Source: Verrucomicrobiia bacterium (lineage in GTDB: Bacteria; Verrucomicrobiota; Verrucomicrobiia; Opitutales; Cerasicoccaceae). Taken from it: a DNA stretch of 50,753 nt. The position numbers were made by a program, and so were the translations under genes. Shown in pieces: positions 31,332 through 40,624 of the stretch (position 1 is its first letter; every line of letters begins with the position of its first letter). The DNA is taken from assembly GCA_030425485.1 (NCBI GenBank), contig JAUIAM010000027.1:1-50753 (forward strand). Direction: 5' to 3'. Under the pieces are notes generated by a model, which worked only from the letters and a program-made list of their open reading frames with translations, was not told the origin of the DNA and did not search any database.

Positions 31332-32399
31332 CTAGTCAACCTCGCGGAGCAGTTCGCGCCATGAGTCGAGCTCGGGGATGCCGGGCTTACGCTCACCGAA
31401 GAACTGGGCGATGTTGTTGCCGTCCTTGTCGAAGATTTCCAGCGAGTTGACTTCGCCATCTGCGGAGGGCTTGCGTACGAGCCAAGAGCTGTAGATGCCG
31501 GATTCGAGCAGGTGCAGGTTGAAGTCCGGGTCCATGACGTTGTACCAATCCTGGTACTCCATCAGTTTTTCGACCGGGCCGCTGTGGATCTGGATGCAGT
31601 GGTCATTGCCGACGAAGACCATGATCGGGACCTTGAGGTCGCGGGCCAGGTCGAGCACAACGCGGGCCGCGCCGTTGCTGACCTTGCGCGTGTAGGTGCC
31701 TTCGGCCAAGCGAAGTGCCTGCACACGGCCTACGCGGTGCTTCATAATCATGGGGAAGAAGTCGTGCGTGTCCTGCAACTTGCTCCAGGCATCGAGCAGG
31801 CTTTCCTTGTTGATCTCGGCGTCGGGTTGATCCGGCTTGGGCGCGGGAGTAGCTTCTACGCTGAGTTGCTCAGACTGGTCGTCTGACTTGTACTGTGCGC
31901 ATAAAGCTTCAAAGGGGGCCACGCCCTCGTCGCTCTTCACGTAGATCTTGTGGATCGCGGTGCCGGAGGCGTCGAAAACCTGGAGCGAGCGGCTGCGCCC
32001 GCGGGGGCCTTCTTCGTCCACGGCAAAGGCGTGCGTCCAGCCGCTGAGGAAGAGGCGCAGGTCAATGACCTTGCCGGTGATGAGGCCGATCTTCCCACCG
32101 TGCATGAGCGGGTGGATCTGCTCGTACTCACCGGTTTTCTCATGCACGCAGTGTTCGTTACGCGTCAGCACCATGACTTTGCCCAGGCCCTTCCAGCTTT
32201 GCATAAAGGCGCCCCAGTCGGAGACGTTCAGTCGCGTGACAGTCGTGCCGCATTGGGTGGCAAGCAGTTCGGCTTCGCTTACGCCGAGTGCGTCGGCGGC
32301 GTTGCGGATGCGCATCTTGGGATTTTCTTCGCGCAGTTTAGCCCAGCGTGTGGAGAGGCTCTCCGTGGAATCGGGAGCAGGAACGGATGATTGACTCAT
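31332..32399 (-). CDS. hmuS: Hemin-degrading factor, HmuS/HemS family
   Basis: A 355-residue cytoplasmic protein with the two-fold repeat of the HmuS/HemS family. The first half has VMVLTRNEHCVHEKTGEYE (candidate haem-ligand His), the second half IMVFVGNDHCIQIHSGPVE. The start resembles the family pattern SLSTRWAKLREENPKMRIRNAADALGVSEAEL. Members bind haem in the cytoplasm and deliver or break it down to release iron. It is divergent from hmuT, sharing a 69-base promoter region. A Gln/Ala/Pro-rich linker separates the halves. Confidence 0.92.
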   Translation of the reverse strand: MSQSSVPAPDSTESLSTRWAKLREENPKMRIRNAADALGVSEAELLATQCGTTVTRLNVSDWGAFMQSWKGLGKVMVLTRNEHCVHEKTGEYEQIHPLMHGGKIGLITGKVIDLRLFLSGWTHAFAVDEEGPRGRSRSLQVFDASGTAIHKIYVKSDEGVAPFEALCAQYKSDDQSEQLSVEATPAPKPDQPDAEINKESLLDAWSKLQDTHDFFPMIMKHRVGRVQALRLAEGTYTRKVSNGAARVVLDLARDLKVPIMVFVGNDHCIQIHSGPVEKLMEYQDWYNVMDPDFNLHLLESGIYSSWLVRKPSADGEVNSLEIFDKDGNNIAQFFGERKPGIPELDSWRELLREVD

Positions 32400-32468
32400 G
32401 TTTTGCTGTAAATTTGAGATTGAGTCACAAATACAATTCGTCCAGTCTTGGCCGTCAATCTGAAAAAC
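32400..32468. promoter_or_regulatory. Shared promoter region of hmuS and hmuT
   Basis: A short AT-rich interval between divergent haem genes. A Fur-type operator would be expected; the segment AAATTTGAGATTGAGTCACAAAT is AT-rich and partly symmetric but does not match a Fur box closely. Function inferred from context only. Confidence 0.35.
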
Positions 32469-33365
32469 ATGAGCACATTCACACGCCTAAGCCTTTTTTT
32501 GACTCTGATTACGCTCGGAGCGCACTGCCTGAGTGCGAACGACGCAGCCACGCACTCCGAGGAGGATTCGCGCCGAATCATCGGGATCGGGGGTGCGGCC
32601 ACCGAGATCGTCTATGCCCTGGGGGCGGGTGACGAAGTCGTCGCGGTGGACCTCTCCAGCACCTATCCGCGTGAGGTGATGAGCTTGCCCAAGGTTGGCT
32701 ACATTCGTGCGATTTCTCCCGAAGGTGTGCTTTCGATGAATCCCGGGCTTGTCGTGACAACGGAGTCGATGGGGCCTCCGGCCGCCAAGGAGGCGATGAA
32801 GCAAGTCAGCGTGCCGGTAGTCTGGTGCCCTGAGCCCGAGAGCCCGGAAGCGCTTTACGAGGGCATTGCCCTGGTGGGTGAAGCCCTCGCGCAGGAGGAG
32901 GCTGCTCAGGCGCTGGTTGCCCAGATCCAGGCCCAATTGGCTGCCGTTTCAGCGGGCACGGCCACTTGGTCGGAAAAGCCCAAGGTGCTCTTTTTCCTGC
33001 AGCCCCCGTCGATGAACCGCGCGGGCATGGCTGCCGGTAATGACACCCGTGCCGACGAGCTTATCAAGCTCTCTGGCGGGCAGAACGCCCTCGTCGGCGT
33101 GACCAAGTATCAGCCAATTACGGCTGAGAGCATCCTGGCCGCACAGCCGGATGTTATCCTGATGGGCAGTGCCGCGGGGCACGGAGCCAGCCAGGGGAAT
33201 GTGGATTATCTGGTTAACCTTCCGGCACTTCAGAGCGTACCTGCTGTCAAGAATGGCCAGGTCCTCATCGTGCCGATGGACGACCTCTCTTTTGGCCCTC
33301 GTCTGGGCCAGGCTGCCAAGTCCTGGTCTGGCACGTTCGCCAAGTCTGTGCCTCCCGCTAAGTAA
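32469..33365 (+). CDS. hmuT: Haem ABC transporter substrate-binding protein, HmuT family
   Basis: A 298-residue periplasmic protein from ATG 32469 (an in-frame TTG lies at 32448). The signal peptide is MSTFTRLSLFLTLITLGAHCLSA. The class III binding-protein fold is shown by RIIGIGGAATEIVYALGAGD, VGYIRAISPEGVLSMNPGLV, ITAESILAAQPDVILMGSA and LPALQSVPAVKNGQVL. It should pass haem from the periplasm to an HmuUV permease/ATPase. Neither partner nor a TonB receptor is in this window, so the pathway must be completed elsewhere. It is divergently paired with hmuS. Confidence 0.9.
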   Translation: MSTFTRLSLFLTLITLGAHCLSANDAATHSEEDSRRIIGIGGAATEIVYALGAGDEVVAVDLSSTYPREVMSLPKVGYIRAISPEGVLSMNPGLVVTTESMGPPAAKEAMKQVSVPVVWCPEPESPEALYEGIALVGEALAQEEAAQALVAQIQAQLAAVSAGTATWSEKPKVLFFLQPPSMNRAGMAAGNDTRADELIKLSGGQNALVGVTKYQPITAESILAAQPDVILMGSAAGHGASQGNVDYLVNLPALQSVPAVKNGQVLIVPMDDLSFGPRLGQAAKSWSGTFAKSVPPAK

Positions 33366-33503
33366 TCACCGCGAGGCAATATCGTTCGGGGGAGTTGTTT
33401 CCTCCGGACGGTCGCCTGCGGGTGGACAGTTTCATTCCTGCGGGCACTTATAGGATTGTCATGACGCGTGGGCCTTGGCTCACTGGGTGTCCTACTGTTA
33501 ATC

Positions 33504-34901
33504 ATGGACATCCCGACCTTACGCCAGGCCGTAGAGGCTTCCCCCGATAATGTTCCCCTGCTCCTTCTCTTTGCCAAGGCGCTCTGTGAGGCATTCGAGC
33601 TCGATGAGGCCCAGCAGACCTACGAGCACATCTTAACGCTGGACCCCGATAACGCGCAGGCGGTGAAGGGCGTCGTCAACGTTCTCCAGCAACTGGGCAA
33701 GTACTCCGAGGCCATCATACGGGTAGAGCACCTGAAGAGCCGCAACCCGGAACTCGCTCAAGCCTGGCTGCTGCTGGCCGAGCTCTACTGCGTTGATGAG
33801 CAACTGCCGCTGGCGCGAGAGCACTACGCGCGTGCCTGCGAGCTCGACCCCAGGCTGAGCAACGCCGAGCTCGAAAAACAGTTGGGGCATGCTGCTCCGA
33901 AGGACGAGCCCAAGGCAAAACCACAGCCCATGGACGTGGGGAGCTTCGGGGCCGGAGCCATGCGCAGCGCCGAGGAGCGAGAGGACGCGCTCGTAGAGGG
34001 GATGGATACGGACGAGTCGCTCAAGCTCGAGTTTTTAGACAAGCGGGCCAAAATCCGCTTCTCCGATGTCGGCGGCATGGAGCAACTCAAGGAAACCATC
34101 CGCATGAAGATCCTCTACCCGCTGCAAAACCGCGAGCTTTTCGCGGCATACGGCAAACAGGCCGGTGGCGGGGTCTTACTCTACGGACCTCCGGGCTGCG
34201 GCAAGACCCTTATCAGCCGCGCGACTGCGGGCGAGATCGACGCTAACTTTATTTCGGTCGGCCTGCATCAGGTGCTTAACATGTGGATCGGGGAGAGCGA
34301 GGCCAAGCTGCACGCTATCTTTGAGCTCGCACGCAAGCATGCCCCTGCGGTGCTCTTTTTTGACGAGGTGGATGCATTGGCTGCAGACCGCAAGGACCAG
34401 CGCACCTCTGCCGGGCGCACCTTGATTAACCAGTTTCTGGCTGAGCTCGACGGCAACATTGCCGACAACAAGGACGTCCTCGTCCTCGGGGCGACCAATG
34501 CTCCCTGGCATCTCGATTCGGCCTTCCTGCGCCCGGGGCGTTTCGACCAGCTCATCTTTGCCCCACCGCCGGATGAGCCCGCACGCTGCGACATCCTCGA
34601 CATCCACCTGAAGGGTAAGCCGACCGAGAAGATCGACATCACCAAGGCTGCCGGGGCCATGAAAAACTTTTCCGGGGCAGACATCATGGCCGCAGTCGAC
34701 AATGCAACGGAGGCCGCCGTGGCCGAAGCCATGAAGAAGGGCAAGCTCGTGCCGCTCTCGACCAAGTCGATTATCTCAGCGGCCAAGAAGACCAAGCCCT
34801 CGACTATGAAGTGGTTCGATAGTGCCAAGAATTACGCACTCTACGCTAACCAGAGCGGTTTCTACGACGATGTGCTCACCTACCTGGGGATGAAAAAGTG
34901 A
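33504..34901 (+). CDS. TPR-containing AAA+ ATPase
   Basis: A 465-residue protein from ATG 33504. Residues 1-125 are three to four TPR repeats (LLLAELYCVDEQLPLAREHY). A Pro/Lys linker follows. The AAA+ module of the VPS4/FtsH/Cdc48 type has Walker A LLYGPPGCGKT at about 225-235, Walker B VLFFDEVDAL at 283-291, an arginine-finger region RPGRFDQL and a C-terminal helical lid FSGADIMAAVDNATEAAV. Such meiotic-clade ATPases remodel or unfold partner proteins; the TPR part presumably recruits the target. The downstream TPR membrane gene overlaps it by 4 bases, suggesting the two act together. Confidence 0.88.
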   Translation: MDIPTLRQAVEASPDNVPLLLLFAKALCEAFELDEAQQTYEHILTLDPDNAQAVKGVVNVLQQLGKYSEAIIRVEHLKSRNPELAQAWLLLAELYCVDEQLPLAREHYARACELDPRLSNAELEKQLGHAAPKDEPKAKPQPMDVGSFGAGAMRSAEEREDALVEGMDTDESLKLEFLDKRAKIRFSDVGGMEQLKETIRMKILYPLQNRELFAAYGKQAGGGVLLYGPPGCGKTLISRATAGEIDANFISVGLHQVLNMWIGESEAKLHAIFELARKHAPAVLFFDEVDALAADRKDQRTSAGRTLINQFLAELDGNIADNKDVLVLGATNAPWHLDSAFLRPGRFDQLIFAPPPDEPARCDILDIHLKGKPTEKIDITKAAGAMKNFSGADIMAAVDNATEAAVAEAMKKGKLVPLSTKSIISAAKKTKPSTMKWFDSAKNYALYANQSGFYDDVLTYLGMKK

Positions 34902-36163
34902 GCGCCGACGAGCAGTACACTTCTCACCTGATCCGCGGGCGTATGTTGCGTGGGCACAGCCGCTACGAGGACGCGATCGAGTTTTTTAATCAGGCGATTA
35001 CCGCTCAGCCGGATTCCGCCGATGCCTATGCCGAAAAAGCCCTCTGCGAGTACCATCTGGACAAAACCCGTGAGGCCAAGGCCAGCATCGATCGCGCCAT
35101 CTCGCTCGATCCGGAGGAAGCCTTTCCCTATGCGATCAAGGCCCTCATTCTCATCGAGCTGAACCGCGCCCGGGATGCCTGCGCGATGGCCAAGAAAGCC
35201 ATCTCGATGGAGGCGGAAAATGCAACCTTTCGCCGCATACTCGGGCAGTGCTACTTCGCGATGGAGAAGTACGACAAGGCCGAGCACTGGATACGCAGGG
35301 CGTTGGCTGCTGACCCGGATGACGAGGTGGCGACCAACCTCCTGACGGCTCTGCTGCGCCAGCAGAACCGCATGGACGAAAACCAGCAGCACATGGACCG
35401 CCTGCTGGAGCGTAATCCCGAGAACGCCTTTACCCACTTCAATGCTGGCTATACGGCGCTCCAGTCCGAGCAATATGAGAAGGCCGAGGAGCACTTTCGC
35501 GAATCCCTGCGCCTGGACCCGAACTTCGATGAAGCGCGCAAGGGGCTCTTGCAGAGTTTTCGCGCACGCTCCAGATCCTACCGACTTTTCCTGCGCTATT
35601 GCTTCTTCATGCAGCGACTGAGCGGGGGTGCGCAGTGGGCCTTAATCATCGGTCTCATCATCGCCGTGAGGGTAGGGCGCAGCTTGCTGGCCACGATTCA
35701 CCCGAGCTTGAGCATCATGCTGCTGGCCGCCTGGTGGATATTTATTTTCTGGTCCTTCATCGCGGGCGGGTTTTCCAACCTCATGGTCATGGCTGACAGC
35801 AGCGCGCGCTATGCGCTGAAGAAGTGGGACATTATTGAGGGTATCACCGTGGGCGGCTTCTTTCTAGTTGGCTTGCTCTTTGCCGTATGTGCCATGCTCT
35901 TTTCGGTGCCGATCTTCCTGCCCATTGGGCTTGGCTTTGCGGCCTTCACGCTGCCCGTAAGTTTATGCTATGACAATGACTCCAAGCTGGGTATTGGACT
36001 CTTTGCCACTGTTGGCGTACTCACGCTGATTGCAGGGATCTCCATCGGGGTGATGAATATTTTCGTGCCAGACGGAAAGGTCTTCGCGCCCGTGCTCGTC
36101 ATCATGCTCCTGCTATGCGTGCTCTCCACCTGGTTGAGTGAGGTGAAGGCGCTCCGTCGCTGA
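34898..36163 (+). CDS. TPR-repeat membrane protein
   Basis: A 421-residue protein with a GTG start overlapping the AAA gene stop (GTGA). Residues 1-210 are about six TPR repeats (e.g. YEDAIEFFNQAITAQPDSAD, YEKAEEHFRESLRLDPNFDE). Residues about 240-421 hold five or six transmembrane helices (WALIIGLIIAVRVG, IMLLAAWWIFIFWSFIAGG, ITVGGFFLVGLLFAVCAMLF). The TPR part is probably cytosolic, a docking platform at the membrane for the AAA+ partner. No enzymatic motif was found. A bidirectional terminator follows. Confidence 0.8.
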   Translation: MSADEQYTSHLIRGRMLRGHSRYEDAIEFFNQAITAQPDSADAYAEKALCEYHLDKTREAKASIDRAISLDPEEAFPYAIKALILIELNRARDACAMAKKAISMEAENATFRRILGQCYFAMEKYDKAEHWIRRALAADPDDEVATNLLTALLRQQNRMDENQQHMDRLLERNPENAFTHFNAGYTALQSEQYEKAEEHFRESLRLDPNFDEARKGLLQSFRARSRSYRLFLRYCFFMQRLSGGAQWALIIGLIIAVRVGRSLLATIHPSLSIMLLAAWWIFIFWSFIAGGFSNLMVMADSSARYALKKWDIIEGITVGGFFLVGLLFAVCAMLFSVPIFLPIGLGFAAFTLPVSLCYDNDSKLGIGLFATVGVLTLIAGISIGVMNIFVPDGKVFAPVLVIMLLLCVLSTWLSEVKALRR

Positions 36164-36187: not shown

Positions 36188-36219
36188 AAAAAAAGAGTGC
36201 CCGTGGTGGGCACTCTTTT
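36188..36219. terminator. Bidirectional intrinsic terminator
   Basis: A run of seven A precedes the stem GAGTGCCC (36195-36202)/GGGCACTC (36208-36215), loop GTGGT, followed by TTTT. It ends the TPR/AAA operon on the plus strand and the PspA/flotillin operon on the minus strand. Confidence 0.92.
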
Positions 36220-36242: not shown

Positions 36243-37985
36243 TTAGGGCTTGGGGGCGTCCTTGCTGCCAGCGTCGAGGACGTCGGCCAGGTCGCCAGTG
36301 AGTCCACCTGGCTTGCTCGGGTCGATGCCCAACTCGTGCAGGAGCTTGTCCACTACGGGTGAGTTCATCCGGTAAGACAGGAGGGACTCTACGAGCTGGT
36401 TGGGCATGCCGCCGGTGCTGGTCGGGTGCGCGGTGCCGTCTCCGGTGGTGGCTGTGCCGCCGGTGCCGGGGAGGTTGAAACCGTTGGTGGAGACGATCTT
36501 GATGCTGTCGATATTCTCCATCGGCTTGACGCTGGCCTCGATGATTTGCGGGGCCACTTGGGCAATGATCTTGCGCAGTTCGAAGCTGATAATCTCCTGG
36601 CTGAGCAGGTTCTTGGCTTCGTTGATGGCCTTTTCACCGTAAGCCTCCACCTCGAAACGTTTCTCGTCCGCTTCGGCCACGATGCGGATGCGCTCGGCGT
36701 CTGCCTTGGCCTGGGTGACGACGGCTTCGGCCCGGTCGATAGCGGCTTGCTTGTCGGCCTCGGCCGCCACCTTGATGTCGATGGCTTCCTTTTCGGCAGA
36801 CTCGCGGGCCTTGATGAGTTCGATTTCCTTTTCACGGTTGGCCACGGAAGTCTGGCGAACAGTGATGACGTTTTCCTCTTCCTTGACCATGGCGGAGCGG
36901 GCCTTGGCCGCCTGGGCTTCGGCTTCGGATTGCTCCTCGGACTTCTTGGCCACGGCGATGTCGGCCACCTGCTTTTTGATGTCGACGGATTGCTGGCGCT
37001 CGATGTCGGCCTCTTCGACCTGGCGTCGGGCCAGAATATCGCGTTCCTTAATGGCCTGTTCGCGGGCGATGTCGCGCTCCTTCACCGCCTGCTGCGAGAT
37101 GATTTCGGCTTCCTTCTCCTTCTGGCTTTGCGTGATGCGGGATTCTTCGGCTTCGCGTCTGCGGGTGGCCTGCTCGGTGGCCACGAGGGACTCCTGCGAG
37201 GCGGTGGCAAAGGCGACCTCTCGCTCCTGGTCGAGGCGAGCCATCTCTTCGTCACGCTTGATGTGAAAGCTCTGGCGGGCGGCTTCGAGGTTCTTGGTCT
37301 CGATCTTGACCCGTGTCTCCTGTTCGATGCGGTTACGCTCCTCGCGTTTGGCTTCGGTGATGAGCGTGAGCTTGGCCAGGCCCTGAGCGTCAAAGGCGTT
37401 GTCTTCCTTAAAGTAGGCGCGTCCGGTCTGGTCGAGCGCGGTCAGGGAAACCGACTCCAGCTCGAGACCGTTCTTGAGCAAGTCTTCGCTGACGGAGGAC
37501 TGCACGGACTGTACGAACTCCGCCCGCTGCTCGTGCAACTGCTCCATGGAGAGGCCGGCGGCCACCGCGCGCAGGGCGTCGACGAACTTACCTTGCAGGA
37601 GTTCCTTGAGCATTTCGGGCTGGAGTGTGCGGTCGCCGAGGGTTTGCGCAGCCTTGGCGATGGACTCTTTCTCGGGCTTTACACGGACGTAGAACTCGGC
37701 TGTCACGTCGACGCGCATGCGGTCTGCGGTGATGAGGCCGTCCTCGTTCTTGCGGTCCACCTGCAGGCGCAGGGTGCGCATGTTGACGGGGACGATTTCC
37801 TGGAAGACGGGCAGTTTGATGGCACCGCCGTCGAGGATGACTTTTTCGCCGCCCATCCCGGTACGGACAAACGCTATCTCTTTTGAAGATCGCTTGTAGA
37901 GTCGCGCGATGACGACACCGAAGAAGACCAGGGCAGCTATTCCGACGCCGCTCCAGATGATGATGTTTACGATAGTATTATCCAT
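36243..37985 (-). CDS. YqiK-type flotillin
   Basis: A 580-residue membrane-scaffold protein from ATG 37985; the frame stays open to 38327 but the added residues are low complexity and overlap the upstream gene. One N-terminal transmembrane helix (IVNIIIWSGVGIAALVFFGV) is followed by an SPFH domain (about 35-230; SKEIAFVRTGMGGEKVILDG), a long charged coiled coil (about 230-500) and a C-terminal Gly/Thr/Pro-rich segment. Flotillins form cages organising membrane microdomains. As in the E. coli YqiJ-YqiK pair, it sits beside a YqiJ-like OB-fold membrane protein. Last gene of a five-gene operon with pspA. Confidence 0.92.
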   Translation of the reverse strand: MDNTIVNIIIWSGVGIAALVFFGVVIARLYKRSSKEIAFVRTGMGGEKVILDGGAIKLPVFQEIVPVNMRTLRLQVDRKNEDGLITADRMRVDVTAEFYVRVKPEKESIAKAAQTLGDRTLQPEMLKELLQGKFVDALRAVAAGLSMEQLHEQRAEFVQSVQSSVSEDLLKNGLELESVSLTALDQTGRAYFKEDNAFDAQGLAKLTLITEAKREERNRIEQETRVKIETKNLEAARQSFHIKRDEEMARLDQEREVAFATASQESLVATEQATRRREAEESRITQSQKEKEAEIISQQAVKERDIAREQAIKERDILARRQVEEADIERQQSVDIKKQVADIAVAKKSEEQSEAEAQAAKARSAMVKEEENVITVRQTSVANREKEIELIKARESAEKEAIDIKVAAEADKQAAIDRAEAVVTQAKADAERIRIVAEADEKRFEVEAYGEKAINEAKNLLSQEIISFELRKIIAQVAPQIIEASVKPMENIDSIKIVSTNGFNLPGTGGTATTGDGTAHPTSTGGMPNQLVESLLSYRMNSPVVDKLLHELGIDPSKPGGLTGDLADVLDAGSKDAPKP

Positions 37986-38079
37986 GGCGTTTATGTTGTT
38001 GTTTTGTATTGGTGGGAGTCGGGCATGCGAATGGACAATGACTCCTACGGTAGCAGAAAAAAGGGTGGGGCTCGGCGAC

Positions 38080-38799
38080 TTAGTCGTCGAGGTTGGGGTT
38101 GCTGACGGCGATGCAGGTAAAGTGCCCTGCCTTTTCGCCGACGATGAGCACGTGCTCGCCCTGTTTGAAGTGTGCGGCCTCGCGGTCTGCCCGCACCATG
38201 ATGTAGTGCGTGCGTCCCAGCGGGCCCCTGAGCTTGGCTTCGGCGGCCCGCTCGTGGGTGGCCTCTCCGATGGTGATCGTGGCCACGCGCCCGACAAAGG
38301 TGTCGGACGAGATAGCATTCGTTTCATCCTTGGGGATGATGCGTCCCATGATCGCGTTGCCCCATTTTAGGGGATAGATGCTGGCTACGAGGGCGATCGG
38401 AGCCATGGCTGTGGCCGGGATCAGTCCGAGGCCAAGGTTTGTTAGCACGAGCTGCAGGTTGTAGCCGATGCAGGCAAACAGGAAGAGGAAGAGCAGCAGG
38501 ATGATGATGAAGGGGACTTTGCCAAAGTTCAGCCAGGCGAAAACCTCGGCTACCCACGAGGCTTCGCTGATGCTGTCGGGCGTGTCTGCATCTGCATCGA
38601 CCCCGCCGTCGACCGAGACCTCGCCCGGCAGGTCGAGATCTGACCCGACCGTTTCAAAGTCGGGCAGCAGGTCATCGATCCAGCCGAAGAGGCTGATGCC
38701 GGTCAGCAGGCTAACGGTTTGCAACAGCCCGATGAGGAAGAAAATCCCCAGTGCGACGGCAAACGGCAGGTTCTCTGCGGCAGTGAAGTGAGCGTACAT
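38080..38799 (-). CDS. YqiJ-like (NfeD-related, OB-fold) inner-membrane protein
   Basis: A 239-residue protein with transmembrane helices at about residues 13-35, 97-118 and 120-145. An acidic loop (LPDFETVGSDLDLPGEVSVD) lies between the first two. The C-terminal soluble domain (about 165-239; VGRVATITIGEATHERAAEA, GEHVLIVGEKAGHFTCIAV) is an OB-fold like that of YqiJ and NfeD proteins. These proteins are genomic and functional partners of flotillins. Its stop is 94 bases upstream of the flotillin start. It is placed between pspA and the flotillin in the operon. Confidence 0.8.
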   Translation of the reverse strand: MYAHFTAAENLPFAVALGIFFLIGLLQTVSLLTGISLFGWIDDLLPDFETVGSDLDLPGEVSVDGGVDADADTPDSISEASWVAEVFAWLNFGKVPFIIILLLFLFLFACIGYNLQLVLTNLGLGLIPATAMAPIALVASIYPLKWGNAIMGRIIPKDETNAISSDTFVGRVATITIGEATHERAAEAKLRGPLGRTHYIMVRADREAAHFKQGEHVLIVGEKAGHFTCIAVSNPNLDD

Positions 38800-38827
38800 G
38801 TGTGGGTAGCGAAGCCGGTGGGGTGGT

Positions 38828-39508
38828 TTACTTGGACTCGAGGGCCTTCATGCGGGCTTCGATACGGGCACGCTTGTTGAGGTGGGCGAGCTCGACGAGC
38901 TTTCCGCTTTCCTCTGTACTGGCTTTGAGCGCTCCGCGTCTCACACCGGTGGCGTCCTGCAACACACGGGTAAAGGCGCGCTCGGCACGGTCTGCCTTGG
39001 CGGCCGCATTGCCGGGGGCAGGGGCTCCGCCATCAGCAGTGGGTTCGCCCGTGGCAGCGGCCTGCTTCTGGGCCTGCTTGAACTCGTAGAGCTCGTCGTC
39101 CATCTCGTTGCGCTTTGCCACGAGACCGGTGATGGCTTTGTTAAACTCCTCTTCCTGACGGCCCAGCTCGCCGAGTTGGCTTTCGAGGGCAGGGAGTTGG
39201 TCTTCGATGTCGAGCTGACGCGAGATGGCGGCTTCGACCAGATCGCTCCGGCCCTGCTTATGGGCTTCGGCGGTCTGCTCGTCGATGCGGCTGTGCTCTT
39301 CGTTGAGCTTGGTCATGGCCTTGGAAACATGGTACTTCTGCGCCGTGATGCGGCCCAGCTCGGCCTTGACCTCGTCAAGAGCGCCATCGACTTCTGCGAT
39401 GGCCTGCTGGAGGACGACCTCAGGGGCGATGCCCTCGATCTTGGTCACGATAGAAGAGGCGGTCCCGGTGATGATGCGTCGGATGCGGTTGCTGATGCTG
39501 TCGTTCAT
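38828..39508 (-). CDS. PspA/IM30-family membrane-protection protein
   Basis: A 226-residue, mostly alpha-helical protein. The N-terminus (NRIRRIITGTASSIVTKIEG) is an amphipathic helix like that with which PspA/Vipp1 proteins bind stressed membranes. It is followed by EVVLQQAIAEVDGALDEVK and a long coiled-coil hairpin. An Ala/Pro/Gly-rich linker (about residues 158-175) interrupts the C-terminal helices. The family forms ESCRT-III-like rings or rods on the inner membrane during envelope stress. No PspBC or PspF homologue is present. Its neighbours on both sides are in the same operon, with 22-28-base gaps. Confidence 0.85.
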   Translation of the reverse strand: MNDSISNRIRRIITGTASSIVTKIEGIAPEVVLQQAIAEVDGALDEVKAELGRITAQKYHVSKAMTKLNEEHSRIDEQTAEAHKQGRSDLVEAAISRQLDIEDQLPALESQLGELGRQEEEFNKAITGLVAKRNEMDDELYEFKQAQKQAAATGEPTADGGAPAPGNAAAKADRAERAFTRVLQDATGVRRGALKASTEESGKLVELAHLNKRARIEARMKALESK

Positions 39509-39530
39509 GATAGGTGTATGGCGTTGTGGG

Positions 39531-39938
39531 TTAGGCTAGGTTGAGGGCTTGGCGCACCTGTTCGAGAAAGGCTTTCTCGGTTTCGACGCGTCCATCGGCG
39601 GTGAGAAGTCGTTCGCACAGGCCGAAGGCCAAGAGGCGTGCCTCGTAGGTTTCAAGCCGCTCATTAACTGAGACGAGGAAGTCGGTAACGGACTCAGGCG
39701 AGCCCTTGATGACGCGGACACGCCCCACCGCACGGTCGACGTAATCCTCTACGTCGGAGCTGTCCTCCCAACTGAAGGTGTCCACGCGGGCGCGGAGCAC
39801 GGCATCCTCGGAGAGGGAGAGCGCGTTGTCGATATACATGCTCAGGACGAGCAGGTCGATGAGGGCCTCGCGTTGTGGCTGTTGAAGGCCATCGTTTTCG
39901 CTCGGGTCACGATCAAACAGTTTGGGTATATGGCTCAT
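39531..39938 (-). CDS. Small TerB-like helical protein
   Basis: A 135-residue soluble protein, all helical by composition. The segments REALIDLLVLSMYIDNALSL and ARLLAFGLCERLLTADGRVE with a following Glu resemble the TerB/DjlA-N pattern (helix, aDG-x-v-x-x-E, helix). TerB domains occur in tellurite- and stress-response operons and bind metal or membranes. The assignment is by motif only and moderately uncertain. It is the second gene of the PspA/flotillin operon, 18 bases after the first and 22 before pspA. Confidence 0.6.
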   Translation of the reverse strand: MSHIPKLFDRDPSENDGLQQPQREALIDLLVLSMYIDNALSLSEDAVLRARVDTFSWEDSSDVEDYVDRAVGRVRVIKGSPESVTDFLVSVNERLETYEARLLAFGLCERLLTADGRVETEKAFLEQVRQALNLA

Positions 39939-39956
39939 AGGGGTGATGGGTTTATG

Positions 39957-40472
39957 TTATTTTTGTTTACGCTGCGTGAGCAGTCCAACCAATTCGGTAA
40001 TGGTATCCAGTTTGTCATCAAGGAGTCGGGCATTGTAGGCGGGTGCCTGTGAGGTGAGGCCCATGCGCAGAAGCTGCTCCACCAGGCGGAGGATCAAGTT
40101 CAGCAAACGCTCCTCGGTCTCAAGCAGGTAGGGCAGGGCGTCCTTTTTGGCGGGCGGCTTTTGGCGGCTGGCCAGGTAGGCCACACCCTGGGGAAGGAGG
40201 TTGGCCGCGGTATCCACCAGCTCGGAGTGCTTGCCCTGCTCGTGCTCCAGTGTCTTGAGGTTTTTGCGGGCGGGCTCCGTCATGCGGTTGAGCTCCTCGA
40301 TGCCTTCGGCGAGGTTGCCAAAGTGCTCATGGTACTGCCGGAAGAAGGAGGCCATGTGGCGGAGCTTTTCGCTGGCGGTTACCTTGCCGCCGAGCGGCTG
40401 CTGCATGAGGAAGTCGTAGTCCTGCTGGCTGATGCGTCCGCTGATGGGGACGGTTTTGACGGGTTCTGGCAT
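39957..40472 (-). CDS. First gene of the PspA operon: ribbon-helix-helix-like N-terminus plus helical domain
   Basis: A 171-residue protein of unknown function. Residues about 6-48 (TVPISGRISQQDYDFLMQQ followed by KVTASEKLRHMASFFRQYHE) fit the strand-helix-helix pattern of ribbon-helix-helix DNA-binding proteins, including an SEKLR helix start. The remaining 120 residues are helical (LLNLILRLVEQLLRMGL) with no family I recognise. It is preceded by a clear ribosome-binding site, GGAGAC, 6-11 bases before the ATG. A perfect 10-bp palindrome lies just upstream of that. I infer it could autoregulate the operon; alternatively the helical part could be a PspA adaptor. Confidence 0.6.
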   Translation of the reverse strand: MPEPVKTVPISGRISQQDYDFLMQQPLGGKVTASEKLRHMASFFRQYHEHFGNLAEGIEELNRMTEPARKNLKTLEHEQGKHSELVDTAANLLPQGVAYLASRQKPPAKKDALPYLLETEERLLNLILRLVEQLLRMGLTSQAPAYNARLLDDKLDTITELVGLLTQRKQK

Positions 40473-40489: not shown

Positions 40490-40522
40490 CACGCCGCGAC
40501 CGACTAGGACGATCGCGGCGTG
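40490..40522. promoter_or_regulatory. Perfect 10-bp palindrome upstream of the PspA operon
   Basis: CACGCCGCGA (40490-40499) and TCGCGGCGTG (40513-40522) are exact reverse complements with a 13-base spacer. It starts 18 bases upstream of the first start codon, just outside the ribosome-binding site, so it may be a repressor operator or a 5' UTR hairpin. No T-run follows on the minus strand, so it is not a terminator. Confidence 0.65.
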
Positions 40523-40624
40523 GGTTGAGGGTGGATGTGTTGGATGGCGGGAGGTCTTCCTATGGATTGAATTTTATTTCGTGGAATGTATAATATTTAT
40601 GCAAATGAATGGTGTGTGCACAAG

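Follow-up and report, generated by a model that had tools for sequence, protein, structure and literature searches.

How are PspA systems beyond the Escherichia coli type switched on? The question is raised by a cluster of five minus-strand genes in a 50,753-nucleotide stretch of DNA (hereafter the window) from a Verrucomicrobiia bacterium of the family Cerasicoccaceae (GenBank assembly GCA_030425485.1, contig JAUIAM010000027.1). An original prediction, made from the sequence of the window, had read the cluster as a membrane-protection module in which genes for a ribbon-helix-helix-like protein (gene 1) and a TerB-like protein (gene 2, terB) precede pspA, yqiJ and a yqiK-type flotillin gene. 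Our analyses show that gene 1 belongs to a conserved gene set and that in most of the relatives a rare palindrome stands before it, and we give a slightly better than even chance to gene 1 being the local autorepressor of a one-promoter PspA-YqiJ-flotillin operon for membrane maintenance.

Conservation of the First Gene

Gene 1 (39957-40472, minus strand) encodes a protein of 171 amino acids from a family without a name, with a possible ribbon-helix-helix N-terminus and a remainder that is predicted to be helical. A total of 88 genomes were searched for it, comprising the genome of the window (G000, 98.2% complete) and genomes of the same genus, family and order. Matches were found in 12 of them, 11 full length and one a 46-residue piece (G054). 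In every genome with a full-length copy, pspA adjoins gene 1 or is separated from it only by terB or its remnant, and the view that the first gene is a true member of the operon was thereby upheld in 11 of 11 genomes. Gene 1, pspA, yqiJ and the flotillin gene follow one another in the same order and direction on a single contig in 10 of these genomes; in the other, G002, the contig ends inside pspA and yqiJ lies on another contig. Matches to yqiJ were also found in 12 of the 88 genomes, namely the 11 with full-length gene 1 plus G011, where yqiJ and a flotillin-like gene occupy a 5.6-kilobase (kb) contig without pspA or gene 1. Because the gene order recurs in other genomes, the cluster is not a product of chance, and judged by that order gene 1 is a conserved operon member. 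The original prediction had staked itself on the conservation of both small genes beside pspA; gene 1 is conserved there, whereas TerB is not.

A draw of 387 genomes across the phylum yielded six gene 1 matches, of which five were already known and one was weak (G100, E value (E) 6.9e-4), and a scan of named genomes gave 85 pattern matches, the six confirmed ones being contigs of G002, G005, G030, G027, G017 and G029. Beyond the phylum, on a plasmid of Vitreoscilla filiformis, a distant gene 1 homologue, PspA, YqiJ and flotillin occur with their order unchanged. The homologue shows 26% identity, with E 1e-8 in a small locus set and E 6e-4 in the whole plasmid collection; at an E of 0.01 it was the only gene 1 match in that collection, where the Vitreoscilla protein as query retrieved just itself, and phages gave no match to gene 1 at an E of 0.1. 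Flotillin-level matches were present in 33 plasmid records. Among the four inspected, gene 1 and PspA stand before yqiJ in one, PspA occurs without gene 1 in another, and two are without either.

Two further loci were recorded in the course of these comparisons. A plasmid of Agrobacterium fabrum carries a PspA upstream of YqiJ and flotillin (L014:3986-5095) that has about 160 extra N-terminal residues with no Pfam match. These residues do not match the gene 1 profile, so that a gene 1-PspA fusion was rejected, and they are possibly a CesT/Tir-like domain or the result of a misplaced start. In G054, which encodes a separate PspA and PspC close together, L150:4707-8794 contains fragments of gene 1, pspA and flotillin. 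They are what is left of an operon copy that has decayed; since none of the three persists as more than a fragment, the unit can decay as a whole.

A Rare Palindrome Before Gene 1

Upstream of gene 1 we found two features that were absent from the earlier account, a palindrome and an inverted repeat. The palindrome, a putative operator at 40587-40603 on the minus strand, reads TGCATAAATATTATACA and differs by one mismatch from the consensus TGTATAANNNTTATACA; it overlaps a putative -10 element, and a putative -35 element (TTGTGC) lies at 40618-40623 on the same strand. When the window was scanned for the palindrome with up to two mismatches, one match was obtained versus 0.01 expected. Within 300 bases upstream of gene 1, TGTATAANNNTTATACA occurs with at most two mismatches in 9 of 12 operons: it is exact in G002, G003, G030 and G076, has one mismatch in G000, G005, G017 and G027, and has two in G001, where the arms are altered symmetrically (TGCATAACTATTATGCA). 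The exact sequence has only six copies in the 88 whole genomes, four of them before gene 1, and the reversed-pattern control has one. The rarity of the palindrome therefore points to a local regulator, for which gene 1 is the obvious candidate.

Several observations weigh against this pairing of gene 1 with the palindrome. The palindrome is missing before gene 1 in 3 of the 12 operons (G004, G029 and Vitreoscilla; best five mismatches), and the N-terminus of gene 1 in G004 is otherwise nearly unchanged despite the missing site. G027 and G052 each have one of the six exact copies at another place, and G052 is a genome without gene 1. Of 17 one-mismatch sites in the 11 gene 1 genomes, eight precede gene 1, and the reversed control gave seven; since this one-mismatch background resembles the control, the weight lies with exact matches and with their position. 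In addition, a consensus promoter scan found nothing on the minus strand in the region upstream of gene 1; its one call, versus 1.4 expected, was on the plus strand and overlaps the palindrome.

The extra exact palindrome of G027 (L063:1501-1517, which is G027:C24:2027-2043) lies 60 bases before a 259-codon frame, a possible second target of the regulator. Between the promoter and the start codon of gene 1 in the window is a 13-base inverted repeat with a 7-base loop (40490-40522, minus strand), which may stabilise the leader or affect translation; it was rejected as a conserved control element, as no like hairpin was seen by eye in the leaders of relatives. Just downstream of the palindrome, a leader box, CCTCCCGCCATC (40543-40554, minus strand), was recognised by eye in G003, G001 and G004 and partly in G002 and G005, and is thus present in G004 despite the missing palindrome.

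Nature of the Gene 1 Product

The original prediction took the first gene to encode a ribbon-helix-helix-like protein. Its invariant N-terminal pattern makes this plausible, and searches of libraries and structures left it unconfirmed. Across 12 gene 1 members 16 residues are invariant, and nine of these fall in the first 38 positions (the start Met, R13, I14, G29, T32, S34, K36, L37 and R38), forming by eye what we take to be the pattern of a ribbon-helix-helix turn and second helix. When aligned by hhalign with a ribbon-helix-helix profile, which was built from 29 of 30 loci taken from 46 RHH_1 matches in relatives (L110 was dropped for its wrong frame), gene 1 fell into the right register, strand on strand and helix on helix, with a score of 14.9 and a probability of 4%. 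An AlphaFold2 monomer model of residues 1-55 reached a predicted local distance difference test (pLDDT) score of 77, with helices at 16-24 and 33-54 and a mostly non-helical start that contained no strand.

Other results speak against this assignment. Among 400 column shuffles, two reached the weak hhalign score, as did three of 76 control-protein windows. Ribbon-helix-helix models were absent from the Pfam matches of the 12 whole members, eight N-terminal pieces had no Pfam match whatever, and an RHH_1 search of G000 returned four matches, gene 1 not among them. The AlphaFold2 model of full-length gene 1 was poor (pLDDT 47), the best Foldseek match of the gene 1 model (E 5.1) was no ribbon-helix-helix protein, and VIA-align of the structure model gave no fold match; the Foldseek and VIA-align blanks are unsurprising, because the model is a two-helix fragment of a would-be obligate dimer.

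Gene 1 had no Pfam or NCBIfam match above cut-off (the best in Pfam was DUF5798, E 0.088), and gene 1 alone had no match in a PDB sequence search. With the gene 1 profile, 12 PDB chains were retrieved at E up to 10, and the top two (E 0.003 and 0.01), which are designed helical proteins by name, were taken as matches to a helix pattern. DUF2170 (BacA/YjfI, CesT/Tir fold) was absent from the eight Pfam families listed for the 12 members, a list that runs to E 10 with filters that drop most matches above 0.1. We consider the ribbon-helix-helix N-terminus suggestive and unproven, and gene 1 is probably DNA-binding.

PspA, YqiJ, Flotillin and the Canonical Psp Partners

The product of pspA (38828-39508, minus strand, 226 amino acids) matched PspA_IM30 (PF04012) with E 5.1e-12 and 46.3 bits against a cut-off of 33.9, and is not an equivalog of the E. 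coli type (TIGR02977, 27.1 bits against a cut-off of 242.95). It is the sole PspA_IM30 match in G000, which has no second PspA match. Both domains of the yqiJ product (38080-38799, minus strand, 239 amino acids) exceeded their cut-offs, YqiJ_N with E 8e-24 (84.5 bits) and the OB-fold domain YqiJ_OB with E 5e-19 (68.5 bits). The yqiK-type flotillin (36243-37985, minus strand, 580 amino acids) likewise exceeded the cut-offs for Band_7/SPFH (E 2.2e-18, 67.3 bits) and Flot (E 4.3e-35, 120.9 bits).

No PspC match was found in G000, and seven matches to the PspF model all fell under the cut-off (best 296 versus 443.55 bits). The absence of PspF and PspBC that had been proposed for the module accordingly agrees with the G000 searches for PspC and for PspF above cut-off, PspB not having been searched. 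The operon is not an exclusive replacement of PspC systems, a notion that was rejected as PspC occurs in 2 of 11 gene 1 genomes (G004 and G029) and in 20 of 77 others.

In the E. coli pspABCDE/pspF system PspA is at the membrane under envelope stress, as it would be here; G000 is unlike that system in its lack of a PspC match and of PspF above cut-off, and regulation of the present operon is probably exerted by a local repressor, not by a sigma-54 activator. The E. coli yqiJ-yqiK pair consists of the membrane protein YqiJ and a flotillin, as in the present operon. To our knowledge, it includes neither PspA nor gene 1.

Comparison With Known Operons

BacC and BacD of Pseudomonas aeruginosa are YqiJ-like and flotillin-like proteins. 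In the bac operon (PA3732-PA3729 and two further genes), the PspA-family gene is immediately preceded by a small first gene, the arrangement also found here, and is followed by genes that encode a predicted membrane protein and a large protein; co-transcription was established by reverse transcription polymerase chain reaction (PMC10948618, PMC2587700). In a biofilm of a bacA transposon mutant, BacB, BacC and BacD were reported to be 7.2-, 7.9- and 13.5-fold up (PMC10948618). The two operons also differ: the crystal structure of BacA shows a CesT/Tir-like alpha+beta fold (DUF2170), whereas gene 1 is predicted to be helical and has no family; bac is described with a putative sigma-54 site, whereas a sigma-70-like promoter with the palindrome is found here; and bacE and bacF, as described, have no counterpart shown for the present operon. 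If the autorepressor model holds, gene 1 would work like BacA and yet be unrelated to it, and at least two unrelated negative regulators would have come to occupy the slot before pspA in PspA-YqiJ-flotillin operons; the comparison suggests that unrelated proteins took this regulatory slot in different phyla.

The regulatory set-up and the first two genes had been thought little described, which proved true in part: gene 1 and its putative operator were not found among the open-licence papers listed, whereas PspA-flotillin-YqiJ operons that begin with a different gene have been published (PMC11237479). Among the matches listed from open-licence titles and abstracts, none reported an operon of this kind from Verrucomicrobiota, a first member resembling gene 1, or the operator. 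The operons of Ravi et al. (2024; PMC11237479) share with ours PspA, a protein with transmembrane, band-7 and flotillin regions and a YqiJ/YuaF-type membrane protein, and differ in having a CesT/Tir partner, which an AAA+ ATPase with beta-propeller repeats can join. Because such operons are in print, the gene 1 operon is a variant of a known operon type. TerB and Verrucomicrobiota are absent from the main text of that article, and one of its passages places a ribbon-helix-helix factor sometimes as the last gene of a different operon, that of spermidine synthase (PMC11237479). In Bacillus subtilis, PspA depends on an SPFH protein for its placement on the membrane (PMC8581546); the PspA-YdjG/H/I system resembles the present one in an SPFH protein that links PspA to the membrane and in membrane-integral partners, and differs in that these partners are others, YdjG and YdjH, and in that it is not known to include gene 1.

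Proposed Regulation and Alternatives

As an autorepressor, gene 1 would act at its own promoter. First, dimers of gene 1 would bind the palindrome over the -10 element and block RNA polymerase, and the operon would stay low. Second, envelope stress would lift the repression, most simply if PspA or another operon product at the damaged membrane pulled gene 1 off the DNA; alternatively, PspA could be a co-repressor that is itself drawn away to the damaged membrane. Third, the effectors would work at the membrane, with PspA as a membrane-binding polymer, YqiJ as an anchor and flotillin as a scaffold of membrane domains. The probable switch, the DNA site for it and all of its output fit within 4.5 kb, and the genomes searched very rarely contain the exact site, which makes the model readily testable. 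We tentatively raise the further possibility, itself rather doubtful, that gene 1 represents a new family of one-component regulators, in which a DNA-binding head is joined to a helical body that senses PspA or flotillin directly; the state of the membrane would then reach the promoter with no need of PspF, PspBC, a two-component system or a CesT/Tir protein.

Gene 1 might instead be a structural partner or chaperone of PspA in the slot of CesT/Tir proteins, with the palindrome bound by an unlinked regulator, an explanation that we regard as unlikely. CesT/Tir-like genes and pspA form a dyad in other bacteria, as passages of one study report (PMC11237479), and an interaction of BacA with BacB is mentioned as unpublished in another (PMC10948618). 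A partner role would suit a protein that is predicted to be helical, if by a poor model, and it would suit, to the disadvantage of the autorepressor, the 7 of 16 invariant residues that lie outside the N-terminal part, at 76, at 83 and, for five of them, within 120-140; because of this second cluster the C-terminal part of gene 1 appears to matter too. The three operons with gene 1 and no palindrome, and the exact palindrome in a genome without gene 1, are also in its favor. However, if an unlinked regulator also acted on other targets, more sites would be expected than the six exact copies in 88 genomes, four of them before gene 1, and the first 55 residues of gene 1 are better conserved than the whole, although the difference in mean column identity (66% versus 60%) is small.

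It is improbable that the palindrome is simply a conserved strong promoter with its -10 element and no operator, gene 1 being an accessory protein. The left arm overlaps the -10 candidate, coinciding with the putative hexamer, and a TTG candidate for the -35 element is found 20 bases before the palindrome in seven of the nine aligned promoters (CTTG starts 21 bases before it), at 18 bases in G027 and not at all in G017. Conservation in the nine site-bearing promoters averages 1.64 bits per base within the palindrome, a figure inflated by their having been picked for the palindrome, and 0.37, 0.66 and 0.48 in the flanks. Yet the right arm lies beyond the -10 hexamer and equals the left in conservation, at 1.5-2.0 bits per base; in G001 the two arms have changed in concert, and the genomes otherwise very rarely contain an exact copy.

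The TerB-Like Gene

A TerB-PspA-flotillin stress system with TerB as an integral fifth component is most improbable and is largely refuted by the gene order of relatives. In its favor, terB stands between gene 1 and pspA in four genomes from three genera of one family; against it, 7 of 11 operons are without intact terB, and two genomes of the window's genus retain only a remnant or trace of it beside four other genes that are intact. The integral place that TerB had been given in the module thus did not survive, and TerB as a core member was rejected.

In the window, gene 2 (39531-39938, minus strand, 135 amino acids) is an accessory gene that is decayed or missing in some relatives. Its match to Pfam TerB (PF05099; E 0.0023, 18.6 bits) lies under the cut-off of 24.4, and 13 of 13 aligned members match this family at E up to 1 (best 5.9e-9), by which the assignment to the TerB family is fair; the PDB matches for the family of gene 2 included no TerB chain. 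Intact terB between gene 1 and pspA was found in 4 of 11 operons (G000, G002, G004 and G005). In the genus of the window, G001 has a remnant, a 53-codon frame that joins about the first 30 and the last 24 residues, and in G003 only a trace is left, with 12 matching bases where the gene once started (E 0.007) and an end that looks similar by eye. The gene is absent from the other five operons: G030 and G076 match TerB at another locus, and G017, G027 and G029 nowhere.

TerB matches occurred in 16 of the 88 genomes, and 12 of these lie outside a gene 1 operon; the short loci around the 12 contained no member of the other four families. A candidate TerB-PspA operon in G041 was rejected, as TerB and the PspA-family gene, although on one contig, are separated by about 3.5 kb that contains other frames. 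From its distribution among relatives, gene 2 is a passenger of the operon, an optional add-on in one family, and terB can evidently enter and leave such an operon while the remaining genes stay intact.

Operon Boundaries and Neighboring Genes

The original description of five tightly packed minus-strand genes, with gaps of 18, 22, 28 and 94 bases, was accurate in all its positions. The open frame of the flotillin gene ends at 36243 and could start as far upstream as 38327; the ATG at 37985 was chosen as the start because it fits the relatives, and it also yields the 94-base gap. We infer that gene 1, pspA, yqiJ and the flotillin gene are carried on one transcript. Beyond the flotillin gene, a terminator-like stem-loop of 12 pairs is followed by a T run (36191-36219, minus strand). 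Since a terminator scan of the region gave six terminator-like sites versus 6.6 expected, this one is credible by its strength and place only. It had been proposed as bidirectional; the 12-pair stem does end the unit, but only its minus-strand orientation was called by the scan.

The flanking genes, which encode AAA+/TPR, TPR and AraC proteins, were ruled out as operon members, as no homologue stands beside the operons of relatives apart from one 90-residue match at the TPR level, the only one in 15 loci that extend just a few kb past the operon. At 33468-36163, a gene for a TPR-AAA+ ATPase and one for a TPR protein converge on the operon. Farther away, 31332-33365 contains a HemS/ChuX haem-degradation gene and a divergent gene for a periplasmic binding protein, and is probably a haem uptake locus.

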